48,109 nt of DNA from a virus. Below are positions 4,668 through 47,182 of this stretch, one piece after another; within the stretch, counting starts at the first letter, position 1, and each line of letters begins with the position of its first letter. The DNA is taken from positions 1 to 48,109 of IMG/VR virus record IMGVR_UViG_3300050015_000458; one strand, written 5' to 3'. Below the pieces are notes generated by a model. It was not told where the DNA came from and did no database searches. It saw only the letters and a program-made list of their open reading frames with translations. The position numbers and the translations under genes were made by a program.

Positions 4668-4967
4668 TCAGCGCAAAGTCCAATCATTTTGCTGGTCGAG
4701 TGCGTTCTGGTCGTCGCGATCGACCTGGTCGCGCGCCTGCTCGAACGTCATGCCGCCTTTGCGTAGGCGCCGGATCCGGTCCAGACGTCCCCAGCCGACC
4801 TCGCGGCGTAGGCGCGCAAGGGTGATCGCTTCGCCTTCACTTAGGGTCCCGTCCGCCATGACGCCGCGCAGAAATCCGAGAAGCTCATCCACGGACCTCT
4901 CGCGGCGCCACCCTGCGTTTGTGGATTCGGGGGGCTGGCCTTCCGAATCCAGTGGGACATCCTGCAT
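4668..4967 (-). CDS. TerB-like helical protein, unknown role
   Basis: 99 aa from ATG 4967; GGGGGAAA lies just upstream. The longer frame to 5144 overlaps the upstream gene and is Arg-rich noise. The block SVDELLGFLRGVMADGTLSEGE is the helix-turn-acidic-loop pattern of TerB/tellurite-type helical domains also found beside BRCT domains in bacterial DNA ligase or exonuclease-like proteins; the second half is charged and helical. Identification is by pattern only. Confidence 0.5.
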   Translation of the reverse strand: MQDVPLDSEGQPPESTNAGWRRERSVDELLGFLRGVMADGTLSEGEAITLARLRREVGWGRLDRIRRLRKGGMTFEQARDQVDRDDQNALDQQNDWTLR

Positions 4968-5034
4968 GGTTTCCCCCGCTTCTCGCCTCAACCAAAATCC
5001 GACGCCGGCGGCTTCCGCGGTATCCGAAACGGGA

Positions 5035-8981: not shown

Positions 8982-9427
8982 AGTTCGGAGATAGTCGGCT
9001 GCCGGAACGATTCTGGCAGAAAGTGAAGCAACTGCCAGCCACATCCCTGCCGGAAGGCTGCTGGGAATGGACTGCGGCCACCAACAGCGACGGCTACAGC
9101 AGTTATTGGCATGAAGGGACGATGCGGTCCGGTTACAAGGTGTGCTTCGAGTCCCTGGTTGGCAGCGTCCCGAAAGGGCTCACGCTCGACCATTTGTGCC
9201 GTAACCGAAGATGTGTGCATCCTGCTCACCTTGAACCCGTCACAAATGTGAAGCGCGGAGACCTACCGGCACTGGTGGGACTGCGGCAGAGATCCAAAAC
9301 TACCTGTCCCCACGGTCATCCGTACTCCGGGGCCAATCTCTATGTGGAGATCGATGGATCGCGCGGCTGTAAGGCCTGCCGAAGCGCCCAATATCAAGCC
9401 TTTATAGCTAGAAGGAGGGCCTCGTGA
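8957..9427 (+). CDS. HNH homing-type endonuclease
   Basis: 156 aa from ATG 8957 (GGAGG ten bases upstream); GTG at 8972 or 8975 are alternatives. Core: CWEW (35-38), then LDHLCRNRRCVHPAHLEP with D78-H79, N83 and H88/H91 and the zinc pair C81/C86; a second metal-binding set is CPHGHPY (C117) with GCKAC (C138, C141). This is the HNH_3-type phage endonuclease that nicks or cuts DNA, often selfish. It lies directly before the hexamer-repeat gene. Confidence 0.85.
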   Translation: MGACAVVLKFGDSRLPERFWQKVKQLPATSLPEGCWEWTAATNSDGYSSYWHEGTMRSGYKVCFESLVGSVPKGLTLDHLCRNRRCVHPAHLEPVTNVKRGDLPALVGLRQRSKTTCPHGHPYSGANLYVEIDGSRGCKACRSAQYQAFIARRRAS

Positions 9428-10149
9428 CCAAAGATAGCTCCTTGGTGTTAACGCTATTCGGCACGCTGCCGCAGTGGACATCCGAAGCCTCCGGGTACGG
9501 GTCCGGGTCCGGGTACGGGTCCGGGTACGGGTCCGGGTCCGGGTCCGGGTACGGGTACGGGTCCGGGTCCGGGTACGGGTACGGGTCCGGGTCCGGGTAC
9601 GGGTCCGGGGACGGGTACGGGTCCGGGTCCGGGTACGGGTCCGGGTACGGGGACGGGTACGGGTCCGGGTCCGGGTACGGGTCCGGGTCCGGGTCCGGGT
9701 ACGGGTCCGGGTACGGGTCCGGGTACGGGTCCGGGTCCGGGTACGGGGACGGGTACGGGTCCGGGTCCGGGTACGGGGACGGGTACGGGTATTGGCGCAC
9801 CGTCTTCGCGGATGCCGTGCGCTCCTGGACAGCTAAGCAGCGCAAAAGGCTGGGCGAATTGGGCGGTGCATTCATCGCCTTCTGGAAGTCGGACAAAGAG
9901 GGCTTCCCGGCCAACGGGGGCAACCTCCCGAAGCCTGTGGTAGTTGGGACGATCCACGAGACGAGCGGTCCGCTGCGCCTCTGCAAACAAGGGACGCTGC
10001 ACGCCACGCTCGACCCGGGCAAGTGGAAGGGCGAGCGGCTCTGGGTGGTCGCTCTAATCGGCGACATAGGGGTAGGTAACGACAAGGTCGGTGCTCTTCA
10101 ACGCGAAGTGCTGGGAGAGGTAATTCAATCAACGAGAGGTTCTGATTGA
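9424..10149 (+). CDS. Gly-(Tyr/Ser/Asp) repeat protein with C-terminal DUF7666-like domain
   Basis: 241 aa from GTG 9424, overlapping the HNH stop (GTGA) and preceded by AGAAGGAGG. Residues 1-23 form a short leader. Residues 24-123 are fifty Gly-X dipeptides where X is Ser (25), Tyr (21) or Asp (4). Residues 124-241 hold a helix ([30 protein letters not shown]) and a small beta domain ([48 protein letters not shown]). That C-terminal pattern resembles the domain I know as DUF7666, found with such repeats in other phage and bacterial proteins; this is from memory. The low-complexity part, with aromatic residues spaced by Gly/Ser, resembles sequences that condense or form fibres, which is inference only. 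Confidence 0.8.
9493..9786. repeat. 49 tandem hexamers GGGTAC / GGGTCC / GGGGAC
   Basis: Forty-nine uninterrupted 6-base units: GGGTCC 25, GGGTAC 20, GGGGAC 4; a 50th unit (GGGTAT) ends it. Only one or two bases vary per unit and the third codon positions never vary. All frames on both strands are free of stops, which explains the long shadow frames seen here. Confidence 0.97.
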
Positions 10150-11687: not shown

Positions 11688-12733
11688 TGGGCAGCGCACC
11701 AAGCATCGAATGGACGGACGCCAGTTGGAATCCTACAAGGGGGTGTTCGCGCGTCAGCGAGGGCTGCAAAAACTGCTATGCGGAGAAGTTCGCCGCACGA
11801 TTTGCAAGGCCAAAAGCTCCGGGCGCAGCGCCCAAATCTCCAGCCGGAATATATGCCGGATTTGTGCAGTTGACCTCGGCCGGCCCGCGCTGGACGGGCA
11901 AAGTTGAATTGGTGGAGTCAAAGCTCGAGGTGCCGCTGCACTGGCGAAAACCGCGCAGGATCTTCGTTGATTCGATGAGTGATCTGCTCCACGAGAAACT
12001 CTCGCGCCGGGATATCGTCGAGGTTTTTGCTTACATGTCCATCGCTGGATGGCACCAATTTCAAATTCTGACGAAACGTGCAGAGCGGCTGGCAATGCTG
12101 GATGAATCGTTTGGGCGCGCGGTGGCTGCCCGATGCGACGAACTGCGCGCGAAACACGGATGGGGAAACTGCGGCACAGACTGGCCGCTCCCCAACGTGT
12201 GGCTCGGCGTATCTTGCGAGAACCAGGAGACTGCCGATGCGCGGATTCCGCTCCTGCTCCAGACGCCGGCGGCGGTGAGGTTCGCGAGCGTGGAGCCGAT
12301 GTTGGCACCCATCGATCTCGACGGCAATGGGATAGACGATCTCCACGCTCTCGGTTGCGGAGATTCAGAATGCCCGACGCGCGATGTGCTGCCTGGTTGC
12401 CGCGGCCTCGATTGGGTCGTCCTTGGCTTCGAGTCCGGTCCTAACGCCAGGCCCGGACATCCCAATTGGGCTCGCAGGGTACGCGACGACTGCCAGGCGT
12501 CCGGCGTGCCATTCCTATTCAAGCAGTGGGGCGCTTGGGCTCAAGTTGGCCCGGAGTATACAGGCCGCACGCTCATCATGTCCTCGGCTGGCGAGATCTT
12601 CCCTGGGCCTGATCCAAATCCCAATCTGAACCGTACGCACATGATGATCCGCATGGGGCGTGTGGGCAAGAAAGCCGCCGGCCGCTTGCTCGATGGGCGT
12701 GAGTGGAACGAATACCCAGAGGTTTCCAGATGA
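11687..12733 (+). CDS. DUF5131 (phage Gp37/Gp68) radical-SAM-like protein
   Basis: 348 aa from ATG 11687. N-terminus SIEWTDASWNPTRGCSRVSEGCKNCYAEKFA is the family signature; Cys20, Cys27 and Cys30 are the expected iron-sulfur ligands. Later landmarks: RRIFVDSMSDLLHE, FQILTKRAERL, LPNVWLGVSCENQETADARIPLLLQ, RFASVEPML, LDWVVLGFESGPNARP, PFLFKQWGAW. The family is related to spore photoproduct lyase-like radical SAM proteins; its substrate is unknown. Common in phages and near DNA-modification genes. Confidence 0.9.
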   Translation: MGSAPSIEWTDASWNPTRGCSRVSEGCKNCYAEKFAARFARPKAPGAAPKSPAGIYAGFVQLTSAGPRWTGKVELVESKLEVPLHWRKPRRIFVDSMSDLLHEKLSRRDIVEVFAYMSIAGWHQFQILTKRAERLAMLDESFGRAVAARCDELRAKHGWGNCGTDWPLPNVWLGVSCENQETADARIPLLLQTPAAVRFASVEPMLAPIDLDGNGIDDLHALGCGDSECPTRDVLPGCRGLDWVVLGFESGPNARPGHPNWARRVRDDCQASGVPFLFKQWGAWAQVGPEYTGRTLIMSSAGEIFPGPDPNPNLNRTHMMIRMGRVGKKAAGRLLDGREWNEYPEVSR

Positions 12734-13533
12734 CCCAGCAACAGCGAATCGCGGAGTTGGAGGCCCAACTCGCGGCGAGCCAGGCGCGGGAATGCACGAT
12801 GCGGGAGGCACTGGGTCGCAATCACGAATGGCACCTGACGCAGGACGACTGCGAACCGTATCAGGAATCAGAGTTGTGGCAGGTGAACACGGCCGCCCTC
12901 GCCACCTCAGGGACGTGCCCTCATCAGCAGGAAGCGTGTCGGATGCGGGAGGCGCTGGTAATGTGGCGAAGATTCGCGGCAGAGTGCGAACAGCGCAAAA
13001 TTACCATCCCGCTTTGGGCTTCGATGTTGAACGAAACGGCAGTTGAACTGACGGAAGCCGCCCTCGCCACCTCAGGGACGTGCCCTCATCAGCAGGAAGC
13101 GTGTCGGATGCGGGAGGCGCTGGAAACCATCAAGACACGGCTAACGCTCGGCAGGTCAATTGAGGCGGGGATCTGGCTTGAGAAATACAAACGCTGGTCA
13201 TGGGAGCCCGAAGCTGTGATTGGCGAGTCGTTGGAATCGGTTGACGCAGCCCTCGCCGCCTCGGGGCCGTGCCCGCACGCTGCCGAACTCGCGGCGGCGA
13301 AGACGGAGCGGGACGGGCTGGCGGCGGCGCTTGAACCATTCCGTAAGTACATCGAATTGCGCTATGCCATTTTCTCAAAACATGCACTGGATTCAGTTCC
13401 CACTTTGCAGGTAAGCCACACCGGAAGATTTGGGGTGAGTGCAGCGGAGATAACGCAGGCTGATTGGGATCGTATCCGCTACGCATTGGTGCCCGGTGTT
13501 GGGGTGGATGCGGAGAAAGGCGGCAACGGATGA
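12730..13533 (+). CDS. Modular Cys/His-containing coiled-coil protein with internal duplication
   Basis: 267 aa from ATG 12730 (ATGA overlap). Starts with a coiled coil (RIAELEAQLAASQ). The block AALATSGTCPHQQEACRMREAL occurs twice (from about residues 55 and 110), and a diverged third copy (AALAASGPCPHAAELAAA) from about residue 176. Each has C-P-H and the first two a further Cys. Between them lie unrelated 30-35-residue segments. The end (ITQADWDRIRYALV) is separate. No family recognised; related in its ERDGLA segment to the next gene. Confidence 0.65.
   Translation: MTQQQRIAELEAQLAASQARECTMREALGRNHEWHLTQDDCEPYQESELWQVNTAALATSGTCPHQQEACRMREALVMWRRFAAECEQRKITIPLWASMLNETAVELTEAALATSGTCPHQQEACRMREALETIKTRLTLGRSIEAGIWLEKYKRWSWEPEAVIGESLESVDAALAASGPCPHAAELAAAKTERDGLAAALEPFRKYIELRYAIFSKHALDSVPTLQVSHTGRFGVSAAEITQADWDRIRYALVPGVGVDAEKGGNG
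12892..13123. repeat. 67-bp direct repeat inside the modular gene
   Basis: 12892-12958 and 13057-13123 are identical over 67 bases, 165 bases (55 codons) apart, in frame. Complete identity shows a recent duplication or gene conversion. Confidence 0.95.
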
Positions 13534-14081
13534 CTAAAGATGAAGTTGCCTTTCTTGCGCAGATTAAGATCTTACTCGCTAAAGTTGATCGCCTGACCGC
13601 CGAACTCGCGGCGCGGACGGAGGAGCGCGACGGGTTAGCCGTGATCGTGGAACTCATCCGGCCGCACGCTAAGGAAATGTCTGTCCACGTTCCTGGACGC
13701 GGCACGATGCCATTCCGGGACGTTGTTGATGCCTGCGGAGCACATGCCATCCTCGCCGCCCGCGATACACGCGTGAAGGCCGAAGGCCGGGCCGAGGGGC
13801 TGCGGGAAATCCAGCGCCAATGCAAGCTCGGGCTTGACTCCTACATGGTCTATCAGATGATCGACCGGCTATTGGCGCAGGCGAAGGGAGAAGCAGATGC
13901 CCGACGTCTGGCGGCTGCATCGTCCATCGTCCGAGAGGAGGAAAACCATGTGGCCGCGCGCGCTAAAGACGCGCCAGCGGATGGGACCGCCGAGGCCAAC
14001 ACACGCAAGGGGTTACTCAGCAACCAGGGCCGGCTTTCGGGGGAAAGTCTGCCCTCTTCAACGCAGCAGGAGCCAGATTGA
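13530..14081 (+). CDS. Coiled-coil protein related to the upstream modular gene
   Basis: 183 aa from ATG 13530 (ATGA overlap). QIKILLAKVDRLTAELAARTEERDGLAVIVELIRPH aligns with the ...TERDGLAAALEPFRK segment of the previous protein, so the two are partial paralogues. The second half is basic and low in hydrophobic residues. Function unknown. Confidence 0.6.
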   Translation: MTKDEVAFLAQIKILLAKVDRLTAELAARTEERDGLAVIVELIRPHAKEMSVHVPGRGTMPFRDVVDACGAHAILAARDTRVKAEGRAEGLREIQRQCKLGLDSYMVYQMIDRLLAQAKGEADARRLAAASSIVREEENHVAARAKDAPADGTAEANTRKGLLSNQGRLSGESLPSSTQQEPD

Positions 14082-14082
14082 G

Positions 14083-14496
14083 ATGGGACTCTACGGGTTC
14101 AAAAAGCGGTTCGTGCCCTACATCGTGGAGGGCAGCAAGACCCACGCCATTCGAGCGGTGCGCTGTCCGCGCGACAAGCCCGGCAACACGATGCACCTCT
14201 ACACTGGGCTCCGGCAGAAGGGAGCGGTCCTGCTGGGGCGCTTCCCCTGCATAAAAGTCGAGCAGAATCCCATAACCGAGGACCATCGCGTCTTCGTCGA
14301 CGAGGTCGAGCTGGACCGCGATGAGAAGGACCTGCTCGCCTGGCGCGACGGCTTCCGGCTCGACGCGACGGTCTTTGCCCTCACCGATCCTCCACTGCCG
14401 AAACATACCGGCTGCTTCGAAATGCTGATGATGGCGTTCTGGAGCGGGCGCCTGCCGTTCGAAGGCCATATCTACCACTGGAAGTGGAGCAAATGA
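14083..14496 (+). CDS. ASCH-domain protein
   Basis: 137 aa from ATG 14083 (CAGGAG upstream). GFKKRFVPYIVEGSKTHAIRAVR, then PGNTMHLYTGLRQKGAVLLGRFPCIKVEQ, is the ASCH (PUA-like) fold pattern: a loop with K-T-x-x-I/R and a beta barrel ending at a (L/V)G...C..V strand. ASCH/PUA proteins bind RNA or modified nucleotides; phage ones are poorly known, some being cytidine-type amidohydrolases. C-terminal half (DEVELDRDEKDLLAWRDGF ... MLMMAFWSGRLPFEGHIYHW) is typical of phage versions. Confidence 0.75.
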   Translation: MGLYGFKKRFVPYIVEGSKTHAIRAVRCPRDKPGNTMHLYTGLRQKGAVLLGRFPCIKVEQNPITEDHRVFVDEVELDRDEKDLLAWRDGFRLDATVFALTDPPLPKHTGCFEMLMMAFWSGRLPFEGHIYHWKWSK

Positions 14497-22572: not shown

Positions 22573-23157
22573 ATGGCGAAACGTAAACCAATCACTCCCG
22601 ACAGTTCGGCGGGGATCCGCGACCAGCAGTACGAGATCGTCTCGATCGCCGCTATCCAGCCACACCCGCGCAACCCGCGCCAGGGAGACGTGAACGCGAT
22701 CATTGCATCGATCAAAGCGAACCAGTTTTTTGGCGCCTGCATCGTCCAGCGTTCCACGGGGAACATCCTGGCGGGCAATCACCGCTGGCTGGCGGCTCGC
22801 GAGTGCGGGCTCGCGGGCGTGCCAGTGATCTGGGTGGACTGTAACGACGCGGAGGCCTTGCGGATTCTCCTGGTCGACAACCGGACCAATGACCTGGCGG
22901 GCTATGACGACGCCGCGCTGGCGCAGCTCCTGCAGGAGGTCCAGGCGGAGGCCGGCACGCTCCTTGGGACCGGCTTCGACCTCGAGGCACTCGACGAGTT
23001 GCTTGCAGGTATTGCTTCCAGCACCGCTAGCGAGGCGATCACCGCGGACGACGCGGTACCGGAACCGAAAGCAAACCCAGTCACACGTCCCGGCGATCTC
23101 TGGCTGCTCGGCTCGCGGGTCATTTGCCCGCACTGCGGAACGGAAAACGATGTCTAG
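22573..23157 (+). CDS. ParB/sulfiredoxin-like domain protein with C-terminal zinc knuckle
   Basis: 194 aa from ATG 22573; the frame is open farther upstream (22486) but without a ribosome site. Residues 18-110 are the ParB N-terminal nuclease-like fold: YEIVSIAAIQPHPRNPRQGDVNAIIASIK, GNILAGNHRWLAA (the GxxRxxA-type box), LRILLVDNRTNDLAGYDDAAL. The end VTRPGDLWLLGSRVICPHCGTENDV is where other phages run on into a DNA methyltransferase (GDLWxLGxHRLLCGD). Here the frame stops and the methyltransferase starts with an 8-base overlap. It is probably its targeting or regulatory partner. Confidence 0.85.
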   Translation: MAKRKPITPDSSAGIRDQQYEIVSIAAIQPHPRNPRQGDVNAIIASIKANQFFGACIVQRSTGNILAGNHRWLAARECGLAGVPVIWVDCNDAEALRILLVDNRTNDLAGYDDAALAQLLQEVQAEAGTLLGTGFDLEALDELLAGIASSTASEAITADDAVPEPKANPVTRPGDLWLLGSRVICPHCGTENDV

Positions 23158-24118
23158 CCCACGCTGCACGAACTGCCACCGGTCGCTCGAGGCATTAGAG
23201 CCTCTGCGCCACCGGCTGCTGTGCGGCGACTCGCGCGACCCGAAGCAGGTCGATCGACTCTTTGATGGAACGCCGGCGAACGTTGTGATCACCTCCCCAC
23301 CGTATGCATCGCAGCGTCAATATGATGAGTCGAGCGGGTTCAAACCGATCGCAGTGGAAGAGTACGTCGCGTGGTACCGCGCGGTGGCGTCAACGATCGC
23401 CTCGCACCTGGCGCCGGACGGCTCGTACTTCCTCAACATCAAAGCCCACGCCGAGGATGGTGAGCGCAGCCTCTACGTCATGGACCTCGTCATCGCGCAC
23501 AAACGTCAGTGGGGCTGGATGTTCAGGGACGAGTTCATCTGGAAACACAGCGGCTTTCCGGGGGAGTATCGGTACCGGCACCGCAACCAGTTCGAGCCGA
23601 TCTATCATTTCACACGCGAGCACCACATCAAGCACCGGCCTCTCGCAGTCGGCCATGCTTCGGATCTGATTCGCGATAACGGCGGCGGCCGAGGCCACGG
23701 CGGCAGCCGCATGGTAGCCACTAATCAGGAAAACGATGCCGACGCCGGCAACTCGCTGCCCTTCAGGAGTGGAATTGCGCAGGTCGGAAACGTGATCGAG
23801 TGCGCTGTCAACACAGAGTCTACCGGCCACAAGGCTGCCTTCCCGAGAGGATTGCCAGAGTTCTTTGTGAGTGCGTTCACCGATCCCGGTGACGTGGTTT
23901 ACGACCCGTTCATGGGAAGCGGAACGAGCATGGCGGCGGCACACGTCCTCGGCAGGAGCGGGTTCGGCTGCGAGATCTCACCGGCCTACTGCGACGTGAT
24001 CCTGGAACGCCTCGCGCACCTGGGCGCCAGTTCAATTCGCCTGGCAGCCACCGGGCAAACTTTCGAGGACGTGGCGCAGCAACGGCAGGCCGCCGCTCAC
24101 CAGGAGGCAATCGCGTGA
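23150..24118 (+). CDS. DNA methyltransferase, beta class, SPPY motif
   Basis: 322 aa from ATG 23150. Starts with a zinc knuckle (CTNC, C6/C9), then RHRLLCGDSRD. Catalytic motif IV TSPPY (48-52) precedes the SAM-binding motif I DPFMGSGTS (252-260), the beta-class order; SPPY is typical of N4-cytosine enzymes. Other family blocks: FIWKHSGFPGEYRYRHRNQFEPI, LPEFFVSAFTDPGDVVYDPF, GFGCEISPAYCDVILERL. No restriction gene is near, so it is a phage-borne orphan enzyme that likely protects phage DNA. Confidence 0.9.
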   Translation: MSSPRCTNCHRSLEALEPLRHRLLCGDSRDPKQVDRLFDGTPANVVITSPPYASQRQYDESSGFKPIAVEEYVAWYRAVASTIASHLAPDGSYFLNIKAHAEDGERSLYVMDLVIAHKRQWGWMFRDEFIWKHSGFPGEYRYRHRNQFEPIYHFTREHHIKHRPLAVGHASDLIRDNGGGRGHGGSRMVATNQENDADAGNSLPFRSGIAQVGNVIECAVNTESTGHKAAFPRGLPEFFVSAFTDPGDVVYDPFMGSGTSMAAAHVLGRSGFGCEISPAYCDVILERLAHLGASSIRLAATGQTFEDVAQQRQAAAHQEAIA

Positions 24119-24963
24119 AGTGCGTCTGCTGGAAGTGCAAGCTGTCCTTCAACGCCCACGCCGGGCCCCGCCACGCTCTGCTGTGCGGGGACGCGACCCA
24201 GCCGGCGGCACTGACCGCGTTGATGGACAGCCAGAAGGCAGACATGGTCTGGACGGATCCACCGTACGGCGTCGCGTATGTGGGCAAGACCAAGGATGCG
24301 CTGACGATCGACAACGATGCGCTGGACGAGGCGGGCCTCGAAGTGTTGCTGCGTTCCTCACTGGTAAATGCTCTGGCCGCCACCCGGGAAGGTGGCGCCT
24401 GGTATGTGGCGGCGCCGGCAGGTCCACTCTTTCACATCTTCGCTGCCGTGCTGCGGGACCTTGGAGTCTGGCGCCAGACGCTGAACTGGGTAAAGAGCAC
24501 GTTCGTGATAGGCCGGTCCGACTACCACTATCGGCACGAGAGCATCTTTTACGGCTGGAAACCGGGTGCTACCCACTACTTTGTCGACGACCGCACGCTC
24601 GATACGGTTCTGGAGTTCGACAAGCCCAGCAAGAGCACCGAGCACCCGACGATGAAGCCGGTCGCGCTGGTCGCCTTTTGCATAAACAACTCAACGAAAC
24701 ACGGTGCCATGGTGCTTGACGTCTTCGCAGGATCCGGATCGACGCTGATTGCCTGCGAGAAGACTGGCCGGCGAGCCATGCTGATCGAACTGGATCCGGT
24801 GTACTGCGACGTGATCGTGCGTCGTTGGCAGAACTTCACAGGCAGCGAAGCGACGCTCGCCGGCGACGGGTCGACATTCGGCCACGTCGAGTTGGGCCGC
24901 ATGCAAGCGGCGGAAGACCACGACAAAGACGACGCGCTGCGGCTCCTGGAGGAGCAGGCGTAG
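24115..24963 (+). CDS. DNA methyltransferase, beta class, DPPY motif
   Basis: 282 aa from GTG 24115 (GTGA overlap; AGGAGG upstream). N-terminal knuckle CVCWKC, then RHALLCGDAT. Motif IV TDPPYGVAY (DPPY 48-51) precedes motif I DVFAGSGST (202-210); DPPY fits N6-adenine methylation. Blocks HESIFYGWKPGATHYF and KPVALVAFCINNST are typical of phage enzymes. Related to its neighbour but with a different target base predicted, so the pair may mark two bases. Confidence 0.9.
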   Translation: MKCVCWKCKLSFNAHAGPRHALLCGDATQPAALTALMDSQKADMVWTDPPYGVAYVGKTKDALTIDNDALDEAGLEVLLRSSLVNALAATREGGAWYVAAPAGPLFHIFAAVLRDLGVWRQTLNWVKSTFVIGRSDYHYRHESIFYGWKPGATHYFVDDRTLDTVLEFDKPSKSTEHPTMKPVALVAFCINNSTKHGAMVLDVFAGSGSTLIACEKTGRRAMLIELDPVYCDVIVRRWQNFTGSEATLAGDGSTFGHVELGRMQAAEDHDKDDALRLLEEQA

Positions 24964-25635: not shown

Positions 25636-27547
25636 CGCCTTCGTCATGGGCTTCCGGCCCGAACCCGAGATGACTGTCTCGGAATGGGCTGACCGCTACC
25701 GCTACGTCTCGAAACCGAGTCCGGAACCCGGCTTCTGGCGGACCTCGCGCGTGCCGTATATGAAGGAAATCATGGACCGGCTCTCGCCCTCCGACCCCGC
25801 TGAGATCATTGTGAACGTGAAAGCCGCGCAAGGCGCCGGCTCAGAGGGCGGCATTAACGCCGTTGGCTGCTGGATGCACCGGTACCCCGACTCGATCCAA
25901 TACGTGCTCGGCTCAATCCAGAGCGCGCGGCGCTTCGTGAGCCGGCGTCTGGATCCGATGATCGAAGCAAACGAAGTACTCCGGACGATCGTTTCCGCCA
26001 AGCGCTCGCGCGGCTCGTCGAACACCACCACGCTTAAGGAGTTCGGCGATTCGCAGTTGGTCATCTCGACCGCGGCGTCCACATCGGACGCCAGAGCAGA
26101 TTCCTACCGCTACCAGGTCCAGGACGAGGTGGACTCGTTCCCTGGGGATCTGAACAAGGAGGGCTCGTCGGTTGAGCTGTTCATGCAGAGGACCGCGTCC
26201 TATCGCAACCGCAAGGTGTATCTGGTTTCAACGCCGACGCTTTTGCATCTTTCTCAAATCTGGCACTGGTTCTTGCAGGGCGATCAGAACTATTTCAACC
26301 TGCCGTGCCCTCGGTGCGGCGAGCTGCAGGCACTGATCTTCGGCGAGGATAGGGCGCGCGTGGGCGACCTCGGAGGCCTGCGCTGGGACAAGGGCGACCC
26401 AGCCTCGGTGCGGTACCAGTGCGAAAAGTGCGGTGGCACATTCGAGGAGTGGGAGAAGGTTGCGCTGCTCCAGAGCGGAGTATGGATCCCGTCGGCGCCC
26501 GGCAACGGCGCCGCGCAGAAGATTCGCAGCTATCAAATCAACGCGCTCTATTACCCTTACGGCTGGCCCGGCAACTCCTGGCTGAATCTCGCGGCCGAGT
26601 GGGAGAAGGTCCACAAGGATCCCGTCAAGCGGAAGACCTTCGTGAACCTGAAGCAGGGCCTCCCATATTCCGACCCGGCAGAGACGCGCGCCGACGCCGA
26701 CACGCTGATCCAGAGGCGCGAGGCCTACGGGCCCGAGCTGCCCACCAAGGTCGCGGTGCTTACTGCTGGCGCAGACATCCACGCCGAGCGTATTGACGCC
26801 GTGTTGGTAGGCTGGGGCGCCGACGAAGAGTCCTGGCGCCTCGAGCGCCGTTCGTTCCTGGGCGATACCTCGGAGCTGGTATCGAAGGACCCGCTGCGCT
26901 TCTCGCCATGGGAGCAGCTCGAAGCCTGGGTGCACGCCGAGCGGTCTTCGGAACTGGGACTGACGCTCAGCGTTAAGGCGATCTGCATCGACTCGGGGTA
27001 CAAGACGCAGACCGTGGTGCAGTTCTGCGGCGAACGCAAGGGCAAGCGAGTCTGGGCGACCAAAGGCCACGAAGGCAACCGGCCGATCTGGGCAGTGCAG
27101 AACCGCAGGGCGCGCGGCAAGTTCCCACCGCCCAATATCATCGGAGTCGACGTCGCCAAGGAGCGCATTTACGCGCGCCTCCGGATGAGCGAGCCAGGCC
27201 CGGGCGCGATCCACTTCCCGCTTGCGCCGGAGTTCGACCGCGACTATTTCGAACAGCTGACCTCGGAAGTGCGCGTGCCCGACTACACAGGGCCCACGCC
27301 CAAATACGCTTGGAAGAAGCGCTCGCCGGGCGCAGCCAATCACATGCTCGACTGCGACGTGCAGGCCTATGCCGCCCTGATCGGGTGGCAGATTTCCTCC
27401 TCCTCCTCGCTGAACCGCGAAGTGGCGCGCGTCAGGAGTCTCGCTGCATCCTTCTCTCCCGCGGGCCGGCAGAACCAGCCCGTCCGCGATCCGGCGGCCT
27501 ATGCCGCGGCGTTCAAGGCGATCGTCTCCGACAATCCTTACCTCTAA
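25607..27547 (+). CDS. Large terminase subunit, GpA family
   Basis: 646 aa, the usual length. Motor domain: KAAQGAGSEGG (72-82) at the P-loop place, lacking the canonical Lys, as is common in GpA proteins; VQDEVDSFP with D173-E174 as Walker B; zinc ribbon C234/C237 and C272/C275. Nuclease domain: GADIHAERIDAVLVGWG (D390), CIDSGY (D462) and LDCDVQAYA near the end. It cuts concatemers and pumps DNA into the head. Homology to lambda gpA suggests cos-type packaging; no cos site was located. Confidence 0.95.
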   Translation: MPTVTEIVADAFVMGFRPEPEMTVSEWADRYRYVSKPSPEPGFWRTSRVPYMKEIMDRLSPSDPAEIIVNVKAAQGAGSEGGINAVGCWMHRYPDSIQYVLGSIQSARRFVSRRLDPMIEANEVLRTIVSAKRSRGSSNTTTLKEFGDSQLVISTAASTSDARADSYRYQVQDEVDSFPGDLNKEGSSVELFMQRTASYRNRKVYLVSTPTLLHLSQIWHWFLQGDQNYFNLPCPRCGELQALIFGEDRARVGDLGGLRWDKGDPASVRYQCEKCGGTFEEWEKVALLQSGVWIPSAPGNGAAQKIRSYQINALYYPYGWPGNSWLNLAAEWEKVHKDPVKRKTFVNLKQGLPYSDPAETRADADTLIQRREAYGPELPTKVAVLTAGADIHAERIDAVLVGWGADEESWRLERRSFLGDTSELVSKDPLRFSPWEQLEAWVHAERSSELGLTLSVKAICIDSGYKTQTVVQFCGERKGKRVWATKGHEGNRPIWAVQNRRARGKFPPPNIIGVDVAKERIYARLRMSEPGPGAIHFPLAPEFDRDYFEQLTSEVRVPDYTGPTPKYAWKKRSPGAANHMLDCDVQAYAALIGWQISSSSSLNREVARVRSLAASFSPAGRQNQPVRDPAAYAAAFKAIVSDNPYL

Positions 27548-27801
27548 TGACAAGCCCACTGTCCGGAATCTCGCTCGAGCAGGCCGCGGCCTGGCTCACC
27601 GAAGCCCTGCAGGCCAAGCACGACCTGCTCACCGGCAAGTCGATCGTTAGGGTGAACGGCCCATCGGCGCAGATCGAGTTCAATCGCTCCACGATTGGCG
27701 ATCTTGAAAAGCTCGACGCCTGGATTTCGACGCTGCAATCAATGCTGACTACGGGCAGCGCAGCGGCGCCGACGGTCCGGCCCATCTATTTCGGCTTCTG
27801 A
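27547..27801 (+). CDS. gpW-like head-tail joining protein
   Basis: 84 aa from ATG 27547 (TAATG overlap). SLEQAAAWLTEALQAKHDLLTGKSIVRVNG ... IEFNRSTIGDLEKLDAWISTLQSML is the helix-strand-strand-helix pattern of the gpW family, at the gpW place after the terminase. It seals the portal for tail docking. Confidence 0.75.
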   Translation: MTSPLSGISLEQAAAWLTEALQAKHDLLTGKSIVRVNGPSAQIEFNRSTIGDLEKLDAWISTLQSMLTTGSAAAPTVRPIYFGF

Positions 27802-27814
27802 ACGAAAGGAAATC

Positions 27815-28135
27815 ATGGCACTCAAGGACCAGGTCACCCGGGGCTTCACACCCGGCAGCCAGCCGTGGAACTACCGCCTCGCATTCGTGGCGGTCCCGCT
27901 GTCGCCTGAGGCAATTACTCTCGCCGACGCGAACATTGTCGGAATGCGCGTGCTGAACACAACCGGCGCGGCGTTGAATTTCACCTATCTTGCCGGGGAC
28001 GGCACGACCTTTACGGTTTCGGTCGAGCCTGGGCAGCCCTTCGGCGATGACACGGCTTGGGGCGTTCCGGCGATCGGAGGCTTTTCGATTTCGGCCTCCG
28101 GCGCCGGCTTGAAGTTTTCGGCAGCGCGGTACTGA
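27815..28135 (+). CDS. Beta-rich virion-like protein inserted between W and portal
   Basis: 106 aa, AAAGGAAA upstream. Strand-rich: YRLAFVAVPLSPEAITLADANIVGMRVLN, LNFTYLAGDGTTFTVSVEPGQPF, GFSISASGAGLKFSAARY. No family recognised. Lambda has no gene here. It overlaps the secreted protein gene by one base, so it is probably part of the same insertion or a small virion accessory. Confidence 0.55.
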   Translation: MALKDQVTRGFTPGSQPWNYRLAFVAVPLSPEAITLADANIVGMRVLNTTGAALNFTYLAGDGTTFTVSVEPGQPFGDDTAWGVPAIGGFSISASGAGLKFSAARY

Positions 28136-29907
28136 TGAAACTCCGCAATCTGCTTTCCCTGCTGCTGCTCGCCTGCGCAATCGCCGGCGCGCAGACCAAA
28201 TGGTATGCCACCAAACCGCCATGCACGGCCACCAAAACCGCCGACTGCACGCCCCACACCGACGCCTCTGGCAACCTTTTGGTGGGCGGTCCGTTGCCCC
28301 CGCTGACCCCCTTGCCCCTCGGCGCACCGAACGGGATTCTCGTCTCAAATACTTTCTATAGCCCAAATTTGGAACGCAACGTGAAAGCCTATGGTGCAAT
28401 CGGGGATGGTGGGCTACATCCTCTAAGCGATACTTTTTCCACTTTGGCCGCCGCGCAAGCCGTCTACCCTCATGCAACGAGTTTGACCCAGACAACCGAC
28501 TGGGCCGGGATTCAAGCCGCCATCAACACGGGCAAGCCGGTTTATTGCGCCAGGGGCTTTTACGAACTGACCACGGGCTTAGTTATAGCCACGAACAATC
28601 AACCCTTTCGCGGGACCATGTGCAGTCTTGAGGTCCAGCCGGGTTTCACTGGTCCGGTGATCTCAGCGACAAAAGGATCTAGCAGAATCGAGCAGGCAAC
28701 AATATCCGGCGTCAACATCATCATGAATCAGGGCGCATCGTCGGCAGTCGGAATCGCTGTGACCTACGGTTGGCTGACCACAATTGACAGTGTGCAAATC
28801 CAAACCACGCAGGGTGAGGCCACGAACAACGGGCAAACGGCCATTTCCATAGATGGTGGCTCGGGATTCTCCGCTTACACCCATATTAAACAGGCATACA
28901 TCGACGGAGACTTTCTGAAAGGTATCGTCTGTACCAACACTTGCAACGGCAACCTGATTGAGGGTGGCATGATCCTGGGGTTTTCCTTGGATAAGTCGGG
29001 TGTCGGGGTGACACTCGGCACCAGCAGCGATACCAACTCGATTCTTCGTACCGACATTGCCAGTTGGGGCATTGGTCTTAGCGTTGCAGGTCCGTCAAAC
29101 GGCCCGTTTTTCCCGCGATACGAGGGTAATACGCTGGATTGGATCGTGCAACCGGGAGCAACCAACAACTGGATGGGATCTGGATTCGCCACGTACCAGA
29201 ACTACGGGACGGGCACAACTTGGGAAACGCCGACAGTCGCCAAGCTTTCCAACAGTAATCAGATCGCGGACTATACGACGCTTGGCGCTGAATCCCTCTA
29301 TGCTCCTACTGCCGGGTTTTGGCTATACACCGGAGACTGTGCGTTTAGTACCCCAAATCAGACCTGCACCTACAGCACCGGGGCCGGAACAATAACACTC
29401 CAAACGACCCATTTCGCGCCAACTGCCCCAGTTGCCCTCAGTGAGCGGATGTATGCCTTCACCTACACTGTCAGCGCAGCTACGCAAGTGGGAGCAACAC
29501 TGACACTCACAACCACGTTTGCCAAGACTGCCACCGTGCTGTCATTGACCGCTGGAGCGCACACATATTACGTCGAATCAGCAAGCCCCGTCAGTAACTT
29601 TGTGTTGTCTTTGTCGGGCATGACATCAGGAGCTTTTACGCTTGGGTCGATGAGTCTGAAAGAAATCACAGGCGGACGGCTAATGGTCGGAAATGAAATC
29701 GTGGCGAATAACTTCACAGGCAAATGGAGCAAATCGGTTCCCGTCCTCACCGCCGCTTTACCCACATGCAATGCAGCCGCAGCCGGAACTAATGCCGCTG
29801 TATCTGATGCAACTACTCCTGCTATCGGCTCTGCCCTCACTGGCGGCGGCGCAGTCTTTGCGGCAGTGGTCTGCAATGGAGCGACCTGGAAAGTGAACGG
29901 GATCTAG
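28135..29907 (+). CDS. Secreted-type beta-helix (pectate-lyase-like) protein
   Basis: 590 aa from ATG 28135 (TGATG overlap). Clear signal peptide (KLRNLLSLLLLACAIAGAQ, cleavage near residue 19). Residues 82-130 (VKAYGAIGDGG ... DWAGIQAAINTG) match the pectate-lyase/tailspike superfamily entry segment, followed by a long series of short strands as in a right-handed beta-helix to about residue 330, then a beta-sandwich-like part (FTYTVSAATQVGATLTLTTTF) and an end (FAAVVCNGATWKVNGI) seen in fibre-like proteins. It may be a tailspike with an odd leader or, more likely, a cargo enzyme. DNA is less GC-rich than its neighbours. Confidence 0.75.
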   Translation: MKLRNLLSLLLLACAIAGAQTKWYATKPPCTATKTADCTPHTDASGNLLVGGPLPPLTPLPLGAPNGILVSNTFYSPNLERNVKAYGAIGDGGLHPLSDTFSTLAAAQAVYPHATSLTQTTDWAGIQAAINTGKPVYCARGFYELTTGLVIATNNQPFRGTMCSLEVQPGFTGPVISATKGSSRIEQATISGVNIIMNQGASSAVGIAVTYGWLTTIDSVQIQTTQGEATNNGQTAISIDGGSGFSAYTHIKQAYIDGDFLKGIVCTNTCNGNLIEGGMILGFSLDKSGVGVTLGTSSDTNSILRTDIASWGIGLSVAGPSNGPFFPRYEGNTLDWIVQPGATNNWMGSGFATYQNYGTGTTWETPTVAKLSNSNQIADYTTLGAESLYAPTAGFWLYTGDCAFSTPNQTCTYSTGAGTITLQTTHFAPTAPVALSERMYAFTYTVSAATQVGATLTLTTTFAKTATVLSLTAGAHTYYVESASPVSNFVLSLSGMTSGAFTLGSMSLKEITGGRLMVGNEIVANNFTGKWSKSVPVLTAALPTCNAAAAGTNAAVSDATTPAIGSALTGGGAVFAAVVCNGATWKVNGI

Positions 29908-29964
29908 GCAACCAGTTTGCCGCATTCCGTCACCTGATCCCCCCGCTTTTCCTAGGAAAACCCA

Positions 29965-30144
29965 ATGACGATTCACTATTCGCAGAAGGGCCGCACCGTG
30001 ACCGCCTGGCTCGAGCGCAAAGGCGTGCGCATCGCAGAAGCCTCCGGCAACTCGCTGGAAATGGCGATCGGCAGACTGGTTTACGCTTTTTCGCAGGGCG
30101 ACGACCCAGCGGCCACGCCGCGGATCCGCGTTGTGGAAGGATAG
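29965..30144 (+). CDS. Small protein before the portal gene
   Basis: 59 aa from ATG 29965 (CTAGGAAAA upstream). IHYSQKGRTVTAWLERKGVRIAEASGNSLEMAIGRLVYAFSQ is a compact strand-helix sequence and codon use fits a real gene. No family recognised. Confidence 0.65.
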   Translation: MTIHYSQKGRTVTAWLERKGVRIAEASGNSLEMAIGRLVYAFSQGDDPAATPRIRVVEG

Positions 30145-30198
30145 TTCGCTCCCGCAATCTCTGACCTCGCGCGACCTCCGGCCAATTCCAAAGAACTT

Positions 30199-31827
30199 AT
30201 GAAACAACCGCGCAAGCAAAAGCGCCTGGCGGCGCGCGCCGGCGGCGGCGCCTCCACGAGCATGTCGGCGTTCGGCAACTCGTATTTCGGCGCATCCGAC
30301 GCGAAGGAGTTCTTCAACTGGGCGCCGGGCTACGGCTCTGCCGACTCGGACCTGCTGCCCGAGCTGGTCACGCTGCGCTCGCGATCGCGCGATCTCGACC
30401 GCAACCATGGCCTCGCGCACGGGGGCATCCAGACCCTCACGGACAACATCGTCGGTACCGGGCCGCGGCTCAGCTCGACGCCGGACTACCGGACCCTCGG
30501 CAAGGACAAGGCGTGGGCCGAGGAGTGGAGCAACGATACGGAGGCAAAGTTTCGGACCTGGGCGGACACTACCGAGTGCGACGCGACCGGCCGGCTGAAC
30601 CTGCGCGGACTTACGACGCAAGTATTCCGCGGCGGCGCCATGAACGGAGAAGGCCTGGCACTGCCGATCTGGGACCCGCGGCCGGGCCTCAAGTGGTCGA
30701 CGCGGCTGCAGGTCATCGAGTCCGACCGGCTCTCTTCCCCGTTCGGCCAGCTCGACAGCCAGCTCCTGCGCGGCGGCATCGAGATCGACGAACACGGCCG
30801 CCCCGAGGCTTATTGGATCACGACCGTGCATCCGGGCGACTGGCTTTCGATCTTCGCGCAGAATGCCTTCGACTGGGAGCGCATCCCGGCGGAAACCGAA
30901 TGGGGCCGGAAGCGCGTGATCCACGTGCACGACGCGGAGCGCTGCGGGCAGAACCGCGGCAAACCGATCCTCGCGCCGGTGATTGGGCAGTTCCGGATGC
31001 TCGACAACTACCAGCGCACGGAGCTGCAGTCGGCGGTCATCAACGCGATGATCGCGGCGTACGTCGAAACGCCGCTGCCGCCCGAGACGCTGCTGTCAAT
31101 GTTCGGGGGCGACGACGGGGACCAGCGCGCCAAAGATTACATGGTGCAGAATCGGGAACTGATCGCGCCGCTCAAGGGCGCGGCCACGATCCAGCTGCCT
31201 CCCGGCACGAAGCTGAACCCCTTTATCCCGTCCAGGCCCAGCGCGCAGTACGAGGCTTACACGACCTCGCTGCTGCGCCACATCGCGGCGTCGATTGGGA
31301 TTCCTTACGAGCTGCTCGCGAAAGACTTCAGCAAAACGAATTACTCGAGTGCGCGGGCCGCGCTGCTGGAGGCCTGGCGCTTCTTCCTCAGCCGGCGCGA
31401 GTGGCTGACCTTCCTGTGGCTGCAACCGGTTTACGAACTGTGGCTCGAGGAGGCGATCAACGCCGGCGTGGTCGAGGCGCCCGACTTCTATGACAACCGC
31501 TACGCCTACTGCCGGTGCCGTTGGATCTGGCCAGGCCGCGGTTGGGTCGACCCGGTGAAAGAGGCCGACGCCGCGGTGATCCGCATGGACGCCGGGTTAT
31601 CCACTCTTGAGCGGGAGAGCGCGGAGCAGGGCGCGGACTGGGAAGAAGACATGGAGCAGCGTGCAGCCGAACTGCGCCGCGCGCTCGACATGGAAGTTGC
31701 AATGAACCTGCCGGCCGGCTCGCTGTCGAAGCTCCCGCCACGCGCGCCGGCAACGGGCGCACCGTACCCGTCCGACACGCCTAAAAACGTACCAGAGGCA
31801 CAACCCGCGGAAGGACAGCCCGCATGA
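30199..31827 (+). CDS. Portal protein, lambda gpB family
   Basis: 542 aa. Landmarks: RSRDLDRNHGLAHGGIQTLTDNIVGTGPRL, EGLALPIW, LQVIESDRLSSP, IEIDEHGRPEAYWI, HVHDAERCGQNRGKPILAPVIGQF, NAMIAAYVETPLP, HIAASIGIPYELLAKDFSKTNYSSARAALLEAWRFF, GRGWVDPVKEADA. This is the full lambda-type (Phage_portal_2) pattern at normal length. Twelve copies form the DNA gate at one capsid vertex. Confidence 0.95.
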   Translation: MKQPRKQKRLAARAGGGASTSMSAFGNSYFGASDAKEFFNWAPGYGSADSDLLPELVTLRSRSRDLDRNHGLAHGGIQTLTDNIVGTGPRLSSTPDYRTLGKDKAWAEEWSNDTEAKFRTWADTTECDATGRLNLRGLTTQVFRGGAMNGEGLALPIWDPRPGLKWSTRLQVIESDRLSSPFGQLDSQLLRGGIEIDEHGRPEAYWITTVHPGDWLSIFAQNAFDWERIPAETEWGRKRVIHVHDAERCGQNRGKPILAPVIGQFRMLDNYQRTELQSAVINAMIAAYVETPLPPETLLSMFGGDDGDQRAKDYMVQNRELIAPLKGAATIQLPPGTKLNPFIPSRPSAQYEAYTTSLLRHIAASIGIPYELLAKDFSKTNYSSARAALLEAWRFFLSRREWLTFLWLQPVYELWLEEAINAGVVEAPDFYDNRYAYCRCRWIWPGRGWVDPVKEADAAVIRMDAGLSTLERESAEQGADWEEDMEQRAAELRRALDMEVAMNLPAGSLSKLPPRAPATGAPYPSDTPKNVPEAQPAEGQPA

Positions 31828-43033: not shown

Positions 43034-46000
43034 ATGGAAACCATCGTTCCGACCGGCGCCCGTGCGGCCCGGGTGACGTTGACCGCGACCTGGTCGTCGG
43101 GCGCTTACAACGACGGGTATGCCGACGATCTCAAGCTCACCATCAACGGCGGGCCAAACCTGATCGTCAACGGAAGCGCAGAGGCCGGCCTGGCGGGCTG
43201 GACTGTGGCCACCGGCGCCATGGAGGCCGCGGTTTACGGTGTCGAGGGCTCGTACGGCATGAATCCGAACGCGCCTTCGCCGTTAGTCGGCACTCACTTT
43301 TTCGGTGGTGGACTGGGCAGCGCATCGTCGGCGATCTACCAGACCATCGACATCTCGGCGCTGGCGACGGTGATCGACGCCGGCGCAGCGCGCTTCTTTC
43401 TTTCAGCGTGGCTGGGAGGCTTTCTCGCGGAAGCCGACGTCTCCACTGTGACGATCGAGTGGAAGGACGGCGCCGGCGGCGCGCTGGGCTCGACCGTTAC
43501 ACTGGGCCCGGTCGGACCGCTCGAGCGCAGCTACCGGACCTGTCTGCTCTTTGTCGCATACCTGAGCGATTTCCCGCTGCGCGTCGAGTACGGCAGTTCC
43601 GTCACATCCTCGCCCGAGATCATCGTTCACCGCTTCGGCCACGGCGACGCCTCTGCAGAGCAGCGCTTCATCCTGGGCGACGGTGTCACGCGGTGGTCTC
43701 TGTCCTTCGCGCGCCTTTCTCCTCTGCGCGCCGCGACGCTGCAGGCCTTCTACAATCAGCAACGGGCGGAGACGATCCCCTTCGTGCTGAGCCTGCAGAT
43801 GCCAGACGGATCGACCAGCACGTTCACTGCACGCTTCGACGGCCCGCTCTCAATCACGACTCTGGCGGGCGGAGTCTTTAAGAGCGCGACGGTCAAACTC
43901 TGCGAGGTTCCTCGGGAGCAGCCAGTCTACACCACAGTAACGGAGCTGACCCGCTTCCCCGATTCGGGTGCCCTGGCTGCGCTTCTCAACGACACGGTGG
44001 AAGTGATCCCGGCGCTGGTGATTGCCGGCACTGTATTCCTGAGCAACCGCGCGATGACACTGGACGGCCAGAACTATGAGCCGCGGATTCTCGACTGGTC
44101 CGAGATCACGCAAAGTATTGACGGGGCTGCAGATCAGTTTCAGGTGACGCTTGGCAATGCGGACCGCTTCTTCTCCACACTCGCACGTTCCCTGACGCTG
44201 TACGGTGCGCAACTCCAGTTCAGTCTTTTTATCGTGAATAACGGAACGCTCCTGAATCTCTGGTCGGGCGAAATCAACAACTTCGACGACGACCCGGCAG
44301 ATAAGTTCACCATCTCGGCCGGTGATCCGGTTTGGAACCTGCGCAAGAATTACCCGGTTCTGAGCGTCGACCGCAACGATCCACAGTTCCAGGTCCCAGA
44401 CCAGCCAGTTGCTGTGCATTCGGGCGGCAACCGGATCACGAGCACGAGCATCGCCTCGGACACGGTCTATGGCCAACCGGTCCAGGATGTCTGGTGCAAC
44501 GATTCCAAACACCCGCTCAAGGTTCCCTGCCAGGTGCTTTCCGGCCGCGACGAGAGCCAGTATTATGCGGCGCTGGGCATTGTCGGCCGCGGGCCGATCG
44601 GGAGTTTTTACCAGCTCTCCGACCATTGGCACACCCTCGACGGCCAGCCTTGGCACGGCGTGGGCGACAGCGACCCATCCAAGCGCAACTATGGCTTGCG
44701 GCGGTCCTATGGCGGCAACCCCGGCACGGGCGACCCGGCGAGCAAAGACAACTCTCCGGATCCGGGCAGCAATTACTTCGCGCTCGATTCGACGTCGACG
44801 ACCTGGCCGCAGAACGGGCAGCCGATCGACGGCGTAGCATTCCTCCAGATTCGCCGCACCGACGCGAGCGGGATTCAGCCGGTCGCGGTCTCGACGCATG
44901 ACATGGAGGCCTATATCGAGCAAGGGCTGGGCGGGTGGGTGTGGAGCGCGCCGGGAACAAAGAGCTGGACTCAGCACATCACAAACCCAATCTGGATCGC
45001 CGTCAATACGTTTCTGGTCTGGAAATCCGCACAGTTTGCCGGCAGCGCCCCCTGTGCGGCCATGCCGAGCCCTTTGCCGGGCAATTGGAGCAGCGGGTCG
45101 GGCGCCCCGACCTCGACGCCGGCCGACGGCGCGGTCTACATCGACAGCACGGCGAAAGTTTACTACTCCCGCTTGGGCGGGGCCTGGCAGGCGATGGGCG
45201 ATTACGCGGTGAACCTGGCCAAACTCTACTGGTACGCCACCGCGACGGCCGCGCAGCTCGAGGCCTGTTTCGATTGCGTCAAAGCCATCGCGGATGCCGC
45301 AATTTGCGACATCGCGGTCACTCCGCTGTTCGCGCGGAACGTGAACGTCAATTACAGCAATATCAGCGGACCGCCCTCTAATTTTCCACTGCCCTCGAAC
45401 TGGACGATCGGATCCGGCGCGCCCAGTTCCACCGCGGCCGACGGTACGATTTACATCGATGCGAGCACAGAACACCTTTATGCGCGCGAGGGCGGCGCCT
45501 GGGTTTTGATCGGGATCTACACACCGCAGGACCTGAGCCATCCGATCTACCAGCAGGGCGGCTACACGACCGTCTCCCAGGCCGTCACGAGCGAGCCGCA
45601 ATTCGCCTGCGCCGGCGTCATGGGCCCGGATGGAAGCGGCAACCCGCGGCCGCTGCGCGACGTGCTGCGGGACGTCCTCGGCTCGTGTCTGGGGTTCTTT
45701 AACTTCTGCTTTGGGAAACTGCGCACAGGGATCGCCTATAGCGCAAGCGTCACGGACGCATTCACTGTTGGAAACACGCTGTACAACTCGTATGGCGAGG
45801 GGAGCCGGGCTCCAGGATTCACCCGCCTCGAGGTGACCTTCAGCGATTCGGATTACAACTATTCCGACAACTCGCTCGGCTACGAGGACAAGGAAGTGCT
45901 GCTGGTCGCGGGTCGAAGCGTCAAGAAGGCGCGGGTTTGGGGTGTGACCACCAAGAGCCAGGCGGCGCGCATCACCGCGGTCAAAGCCCGGGAAGAGATC

Positions 46001-47182
46001 GGCGGGACGGGCACGACCGCCATGATGAACGCCCGGACGCACGAGCTGCGGACGACGGTGCTCGGACTCAGTGTAGAGCCCGGAGCGGTGGTCTCCTACA
46101 CCGGGCCCAAGACGGGCGGCGCCACTGTGAAGTTCCGCGTTACGAAGTGGAGCCTGGCGAAAGACTTCTCCCTCACCATCCAGGGCACGACGGTGGTCGA
46201 CGAAATGTACGATCTGACATCCGGTCCCAAGCCGGCCGACGTCGCGCCAGGCGCGATTCCCGGCCGGTCGCTCGCGGGGCTCAGGCCGTTGCCTGTGCTG
46301 CCGATTATCGTCTCGAGCGTCTCTTATCCTTTCCTGACCGCGCTCAGCACGGACGGCTCGAGCCTGATCATCAGCGGCGAGTACTGCCCGCCGCTCCCCG
46401 TGCACAACTTCATTGGCGTTACGGTTTACGTCGAAATTCCGACCGGTTCGGGCAGTATCGTCTGCGCGGGCGACTTTGACTACACCGGGGACCGCAATGC
46501 AACAGACGACCAGGTCTGGGGCGTGTTCTGCGCTCGATTCCCGCTGCCGGCAACAGACACCGAAACGTGGACGGTCTGGCTCGTGTCGCGGACTTCCGCG
46601 CTGCGCGCCCAGATCGATTCGACCGCTCCGCACGTGGTCATCACGCCTGGGGCCTCCGGCGTCTTTGCGGCACCGATTACGTCCTTCTCGATGACGGTGG
46701 AAATTGAGGGCACGCTCGCCGAGGGCGGCGGGGTCTTCACTGTGGATTCGGCGGGCGTACTCACCCGCACGGGCGACTCTACGCACCTGGTGGGCCACTC
46801 GACGCCCGGCGCGCAATCCTACCAGTGCACCTTCGACGTAGGCGTTCCAGCCGACGCGACAGTGCAAGGAATCTACGTCGTCCACGCTATTTTCCCGGAT
46901 GGCACCTTTGCCGCACCGGATCCGGCAACCGGCAGCGGCTGGTTTGGGGATGGTTTTGGAGTCATCATCAACCAGCCCGGGCCCACGCTCGGGGCGGTCT
47001 GCACCTGCCATAATGCGTGGCACGAGCTGCTCGCCGGCGTCTCCTACCAGGAATTCAGCGCGCGCACCTACAATTTCAACACGCCGCCCGTGAGCACAGC
47101 GCCGCCCTCGGGCATGATTCAAAAGGCCCAACTTCCGGCCGGCTTCTACCAGTCTCAACTCTTCCTGGTGAATGGAGCGTAG
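43034..47182 (+). CDS. Large multi-domain tail tip / hub protein
   Basis: 1382 aa. Residues 1-35 are the end of a jelly-roll (VPTGARAARVTLTATWSSG...NDGYADDLKL) and residues 42-160 its beginning (NLIVNGSAEAGLAGWT, YQTIDISALATVIDAG), a reversed order. Residues 205-300 are gpM/DUF2460-like (RWSLSFARLSPLRAATLQAFYNQQ), residues 320-450 DUF2163-like (MTLDGQNYEPRILDWSEI). Two repeats GSGAPxSTxADGxxYID... with xYxRxGGAWxxxG at about 690 and 790 look like fibre modules. The end is adhesin-like with Cys-rich CTCHNAWHEL. Fulfils the L/K/I/J parts in one chain and likely carries host specificity. Confidence 0.8.
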   Translation: METIVPTGARAARVTLTATWSSGAYNDGYADDLKLTINGGPNLIVNGSAEAGLAGWTVATGAMEAAVYGVEGSYGMNPNAPSPLVGTHFFGGGLGSASSAIYQTIDISALATVIDAGAARFFLSAWLGGFLAEADVSTVTIEWKDGAGGALGSTVTLGPVGPLERSYRTCLLFVAYLSDFPLRVEYGSSVTSSPEIIVHRFGHGDASAEQRFILGDGVTRWSLSFARLSPLRAATLQAFYNQQRAETIPFVLSLQMPDGSTSTFTARFDGPLSITTLAGGVFKSATVKLCEVPREQPVYTTVTELTRFPDSGALAALLNDTVEVIPALVIAGTVFLSNRAMTLDGQNYEPRILDWSEITQSIDGAADQFQVTLGNADRFFSTLARSLTLYGAQLQFSLFIVNNGTLLNLWSGEINNFDDDPADKFTISAGDPVWNLRKNYPVLSVDRNDPQFQVPDQPVAVHSGGNRITSTSIASDTVYGQPVQDVWCNDSKHPLKVPCQVLSGRDESQYYAALGIVGRGPIGSFYQLSDHWHTLDGQPWHGVGDSDPSKRNYGLRRSYGGNPGTGDPASKDNSPDPGSNYFALDSTSTTWPQNGQPIDGVAFLQIRRTDASGIQPVAVSTHDMEAYIEQGLGGWVWSAPGTKSWTQHITNPIWIAVNTFLVWKSAQFAGSAPCAAMPSPLPGNWSSGSGAPTSTPADGAVYIDSTAKVYYSRLGGAWQAMGDYAVNLAKLYWYATATAAQLEACFDCVKAIADAAICDIAVTPLFARNVNVNYSNISGPPSNFPLPSNWTIGSGAPSSTAADGTIYIDASTEHLYAREGGAWVLIGIYTPQDLSHPIYQQGGYTTVSQAVTSEPQFACAGVMGPDGSGNPRPLRDVLRDVLGSCLGFFNFCFGKLRTGIAYSASVTDAFTVGNTLYNSYGEGSRAPGFTRLEVTFSDSDYNYSDNSLGYEDKEVLLVAGRSVKKARVWGVTTKSQAARITAVKAREEIGGTGTTAMMNARTHELRTTVLGLSVEPGAVVSYTGPKTGGATVKFRVTKWSLAKDFSLTIQGTTVVDEMYDLTSGPKPADVAPGAIPGRSLAGLRPLPVLPIIVSSVSYPFLTALSTDGSSLIISGEYCPPLPVHNFIGVTVYVEIPTGSGSIVCAGDFDYTGDRNATDDQVWGVFCARFPLPATDTETWTVWLVSRTSALRAQIDSTAPHVVITPGASGVFAAPITSFSMTVEIEGTLAEGGGVFTVDSAGVLTRTGDSTHLVGHSTPGAQSYQCTFDVGVPADATVQGIYVVHAIFPDGTFAAPDPATGSGWFGDGFGVIINQPGPTLGAVCTCHNAWHELLAGVSYQEFSARTYNFNTPPVSTAPPSGMIQKAQLPAGFYQSQLFLVNGA

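Follow-up and report, generated by a model that had tools for sequence, protein, structure and literature searches.

On the current view, spikes of tailed phages fold and join the virion in the cytoplasm. Lambda Lom, encoded among structural genes and bearing a signal peptide, is made in lysogeny and forms an outer-membrane beta-barrel. The closest described relatives of the protein reported here are the O-antigen tailspikes LKA1 gp49, phi297 gp61 and D3 orf27 (PDB 4ru4 and 4ru5). The LKA1 and phi297 tailspikes are encoded among tail genes, have no signal peptide and carry a particle-binding domain of 142-167 aa (residues 1-142 in phi297 gp61 and 1-167 in LKA1 gp49; PMC5701251). The nearest working parallel is bacterial: Pantoea stewartii WceF is an exported hydrolase of tailspike fold that acts on the bacterium's own exopolysaccharide, is encoded in a polysaccharide operon, bears a Tat signal and retains a P22-like head domain (PMC7949094). 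Bacillus phages SP10, NIT1 and SPG24 encode GH32 levan enzymes that descend from bacterial enzymes rather than from tailspikes; they lack a signal peptide, and action outside the host cell has been proposed for them (PMC4595243). A search of open-licence papers turned up no tailspike bearing a signal peptide.

We analysed a stretch of 48,109 nucleotides (the window), which is the whole of IMG/VR virus record IMGVR_UViG_3300050015_000458, classed linear. Its head genes follow a lambda-like order, namely TerS-like, TerL, gpW, a cassette, a 59-aa gene, portal, S49 protease, a decoration-type gene and capsid protein E. A preliminary description had reported that the W-B order is broken, and indeed both gpW and the lambda-type portal are real by Pfam. 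The interval between them holds three genes (106, 590 and 59 aa). The roughly 2.1 kb at 27815-29907, described earlier as coding one protein, comprises the first two of these, the larger being the beta-helix protein with the signal peptide. The features are as follows.

27547..27801, plus strand: head-tail joining protein resembling gpW, on the left of the cassette (Pfam gpW, E 4.1e-8; phrog_75, E 6.8e-11)
27815..28135, plus strand: 106-aa beta-rich protein without a signal peptide, with a Shine-Dalgarno-like AAAGGA before its ATG
27826..29963, plus strand: swappable cassette, flanked by the gpW and 59-aa genes and delimited by the ends of DNA homology to relatives L002 and L024
28135..29907, plus strand: 590-aa tailspike-like beta-helix protein, predicted to be exported (ORF; phrog, PDB 4ru5/4ru4 and fold matches)
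28135..28191, plus strand: signal peptide MKLRNLLSLLLLACAIAGA, predicted cleavage between AGA and Q20 (n/h/c rule, score 12.9)
28192..28371, plus strand: mature N-terminal segment, residues 20-79, Pro/Cys-rich, common to L002 (E 1.5e-6)
28372..28680, plus strand: tailspike helix-start module, residues 80-182, beginning VKAYGAIGDGGLHPLSDTF (sequence and AF2)
29965..30144, plus strand: 59-aa protein, right neighbour of the cassette, conserved before the portal (ORF; conserved in L024)
30199..31827, plus strand: portal, lambda family (Pfam Phage_portal_2, E 4e-108)

Elsewhere in the window, two adjacent ORFs (22889-24963) read as DNA methyltransferases, the first by a match to N6_N4_Mtase and the second by eye only, and a 241-aa ORF at 9424-10149 is abundant in Gly-Ser-Tyr repeats. 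ORFs are open at both contig ends (47642-48109 and 3-719, the left one matching phrog_6368); these are possibly halves of a single gene divided by linearisation, although their frames do not join directly.

The body of the 590-aa protein is related to tailspikes in both sequence and fold. The helix-start module is 62% identical over 67 aa to the tailspikes of phi297, PMG1 and D3 type; residues 80-182 match PDB 4ru5 (E 4.3e-19) and 4ru4 (E 2e-17), and with a profile built from 40 relatives the match to 4ru5 reaches E 1e-55. The protein also matches phrog_8649, phrog_13768 and phrog_29076, the last two annotated 'tail'. The full-length AF2 model was unusable (pLDDT 36). A model of residues 78-347 had a mean pLDDT of 67, with values of ~90-98 over its first 60 residues and low values beyond model residue 200, and its best fold match was LKA1 gp49 (Z 24.2, 3.4 Å over 238 residues); fold comparison with the O-antigen tailspikes gave Z 24.2 and 19.2. 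By these sequence matches and the partial model, the predicted right-handed beta-helix is derived from phage tailspikes. The beta-helix proposed in the preliminary description is borne out. There is no Pfam pectate-lyase match and the best relatives are tailspikes, so descent from a pectate lyase or polygalacturonase of the host was rejected. NCBIfam gave no match, the C-terminal 69 aa matched nothing in phages, and a direct search of viral and bacterial contigs returned no full-length relatives.

Compared with the LKA1 and phi297 tailspikes, the 590-aa protein has a signal peptide, sits in the head operon and is diverged over the rest of its body. The particle-binding domains of phi297 gp61 and LKA1 gp49 end about where homology to it starts. 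Ahead of the module it has 79 residues, including 19 of signal peptide, and residues 20-79 stand where tailspikes carry the particle-binding domain; no such domain is recognisable in its sequence. The 80 IMG/VR loci that share the module have other N-termini, with 26 to 496 residues before it, and none scores at least 9 for a signal peptide. Some virion spikes bearing the module have N-termini of only 26-41 aa, which counts against a free enzyme.

Scoring of the signal peptide relied on a simple in-house n/h/c rule, which looks for a positive n-region, a hydrophobic h-region and small residues at -3 and -1. The 590-aa gene, read from ATG 28135, scores 12.9, and QTKW are the first residues after the predicted cleavage of MKLRNLLSLLLLACAIAGA; the signal peptide claimed earlier thus stands, on this gene. 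The rule is crude: among ORFs of at least 150 aa in other viral contigs, 39/528 score at least 9 and 7/528 at least 12.5, real membrane proteins included. Among ORFs of at least 400 aa in other viral contigs, a score of at least 10.9 was reached by 4/318. The only other clearly positive gene in the window lies at 2545-3015 and encodes a 156-aa lipoprotein-like protein with a weak outer-spanin match.

The ten mature cysteines of the 590-aa protein fall into close consecutive pairs (30/38, 138/163, 266/270, 402/411 and 545/580; p = 0.008). Pairing was likewise seen in a 541-aa protein at the equivalent site of L002 (p = 0.004) and in an 898-aa protein of another phage group (p = 0.016), with a combined p of ~4e-6 over nine signal-peptide proteins. 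Cysteine counts are even in 11/12 mature signal-peptide proteins (12/13 with a 115-aa gene of L022, counted by eye), as compared to 26/53 signal-less spikes (Fisher p = 0.005-0.009). These tests are exploratory, the set having been assembled along the way with some members related, and signal-less spikes are also slightly paired (8/53 with p < 0.05). Cysteine richness as such was dismissed as a hallmark (1.75% against 1.3% +/- 0.4 in signal-less spikes); pairing and parity alone differ. Even, closely paired cysteines would fit folding outside the cytoplasm. Use of the signal would place its folding in an oxidising compartment, where disulfides presumably form. Taken together, the signal peptide, the missing particle-binding domain and the paired cysteines make export statistically well supported as a prediction. 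This agrees with that part of the earlier proposal of a host-exported polysaccharide enzyme, and a polysaccharide target fits the fold.

Just after the signal peptide, at 28216-28254, is the motif PPC[ST]AT.T..CTP. It occurs in six viral-contig stretches, one in the L002 contig and the other five in L018-L022, contigs of a second phage group, where it heads the 898-aa fibre-like signal-peptide protein near a capsid gene. A looser pattern gave 69 further matches in viral contigs, 0/69 with a signal peptide; 15 matches of the PPC...CTP pattern itself in bacterial genomes were all judged chance. L018-L022 contain a cluster of five genes with signal peptides, set among structural genes (L022 916-9856, for instance): the 898-aa fibre-like protein, a 171-aa protein, a 389-aa laminin-G lectin, a 115-aa protein and an 846-aa pectate-lyase-type spike. 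Two further arrangements were observed. At L120 906-3166, signal-peptide genes of 164 and 589 aa follow one another immediately upstream of two signal-less spike genes; in L014, a distant low-GC relative (TerL 27%), a 193-aa signal-peptide protein (4774-5355) lies in the terminase-portal interval.

The cassette is bounded almost to the base, each border coming from a different relative. DNA homology to L002 (TerL 93% identical) stops at 27825 and homology to L024 (portal 90% identical) begins at 29964, and these breaks define a swappable cassette. The terminase-portal distance is ~2.65 kb in the window; across 60 IMG/VR portal relatives with a terminase upstream its median is 455 bp and it never exceeds 1,666 bp (one further row, with a gap of -4031, was an artefact and was excluded); none of the 60 has a signal-peptide gene in this gap. 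L002 is the only close relative with a similar arrangement, having 132-aa and 541-aa proteins there, both with signal peptides. The 541-aa beta-protein (12617-14242) convincingly shares only the N-terminal segment with the 590-aa protein (E 1.5e-6, residues 4-67). The 106-aa protein, for which Pfam, PHROG and NCBIfam gave no family match, is 26% identical to its 132-aa counterpart (12209-12607); this small partner has a signal peptide in the L002 version and none in the window version. A low-GC stretch of L002 (14242-21103), with a serine recombinase and a D5-like primase and no portal, is either an inserted element or a chimeric assembly.

The different composition noted earlier applies to the 590-aa gene (GC3 0.61) and not to the 106-aa gene (0.77); all other genes checked fall at 0.70-0.85, and the 541-aa gene of L002 is at 0.47. 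Insertion by a mobile element was discarded, as flanking repeats were only chance-level matches. Acidobacteriota were considered as host and rejected: full-length TerL relatives are only 29-38% identical, none of them carries a convincing signal-peptide gene between terminase and portal, and 396 genomes yielded no spike match.

Occurrence that varies among close relatives and a differing composition are traits of morons and auxiliary genes, and both are present. A further trait of such genes is a promoter and terminator of their own; in 27300-30400 no promoter-like site was found (the scan covers sigma-70 sites), and terminators were at chance level. Only 13 bp separate gpW from the 106-aa/590-aa gene pair, and the stop of the 106-aa gene overlaps the ATG of the 590-aa gene, so that the two are probably translationally coupled. 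Given the lack of a promoter-like site, the 13-bp gap and the coupling, the two genes are most likely expressed as part of the late head operon, which speaks against an auxiliary gene expressed independently.

The reading that we favour, at a probability of about 0.5, is that the 590-aa protein is a late, host-exported depolymerase or lectin derived from a tailspike and free of the virion. A tailspike beta-helix would have lost its virion-attachment domain, gained a Sec signal peptide together with a short segment rich in Cys and Pro, and been placed, export-tagged, in a late-operon cassette. Expressed late within the head operon, in coupling with the 106-aa gene, the protein would cross the inner membrane, lose its signal peptide and fold with disulfides in the periplasm. 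It may then cut or bind surface or matrix polysaccharide around the infected cell or at lysis, and this presumed activity, by a presumably free protein, could help progeny leave or spread. Compared with WceF, which also places a tailspike-like beta-helix behind an export signal, it is phage-encoded, has a Sec-type signal and has neither a head domain nor a polysaccharide-operon context. With the GH32 enzymes it would share phage encoding and proposed extracellular action as a candidate polysaccharide enzyme, and in contrast to Lom it is a predicted beta-helix whose expression most likely goes with the late operon.

Three other readings were weighed. The protein may be a receptor-binding protein of the virion with a periplasmic maturation step: it would be exported and disulfide-bonded before joining virions at lysis, the Cys/Pro segment serving as attachment peptide. 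We regard this as rather unlikely. The 106-aa and 590-aa genes do sit in a virion operon, and the PPC...CTP segment is common to the fibre-like protein of L018-L022. Furthermore, the first 180 aa of L242 3293-5671 and L022 916-3456, signal peptide included, are 93% identical, the body is replaced and the flanking DNA is ~95% identical. In such G003-type phages, which are unrelated to the window, the signal peptide and ~160 further residues are kept as the body swaps. An N-terminus kept while the body swaps is the usual evolution of virion receptor-binding proteins; this counts against a free enzyme, and the in-gene swap is our main reason for keeping the virion hypothesis alive. On the other side, the searched open-licence literature held no precedent for a Sec-routed tailspike, and the 590-aa gene is not beside the tail genes of a phage that has another receptor-binding candidate, a J-like tail tip protein (43034-47182; weak match, E 8e-4), which we counted in favour of a free exported protein.

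We consider it unlikely that the product is a membrane-anchored surface lipoprotein altering or masking the infected cell surface, for example as a superinfection block or adhesin. By eye, LLAC at residues 11-14 fits the lipobox pattern and could allow processing by signal peptidase II; ALGC is at the same place in the 898-aa relative, and exported phage surface proteins such as Lom exist (PMC12309495). However, the cysteine at position 14 is just short of the usual range, the AGA/Q site is also present, and the L002 protein has no lipobox and only an AIA/Q type of site. Late expression suits release more than exclusion. Least probable is an ordinary virion tailspike with a hydrophobic N-terminus that is unused as a signal. 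The helix module does occur elsewhere in tailspikes, but n-, h- and c-regions are all present here, 0/80 relatives look alike, the cysteines are paired, and several unrelated bodies bear the same kind of N-terminus. The different signal-peptide beta-protein at the same site of L002 was counted for export.

The infected cell thus probably exports the 590-aa spike, an unusual fate for the tailspike of a phage. More speculatively, and with a low probability in our estimate, the spikes or fibres of some phages may be Sec-exported, form disulfides in the periplasm and join the virion only at lysis, with interchangeable signal-peptide N-terminal modules (the window, L002, the L018-L022 group and L242). 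An export signal in place of an attachment domain, recurring on different bodies and in different phages, would, if true, show a second route for spikes. The finding also bears on a debate about polysaccharide-lyase genes in environmental viruses, namely whether they encode tailspikes or auxiliary enzymes that are secreted, as features of both are here in one gene.
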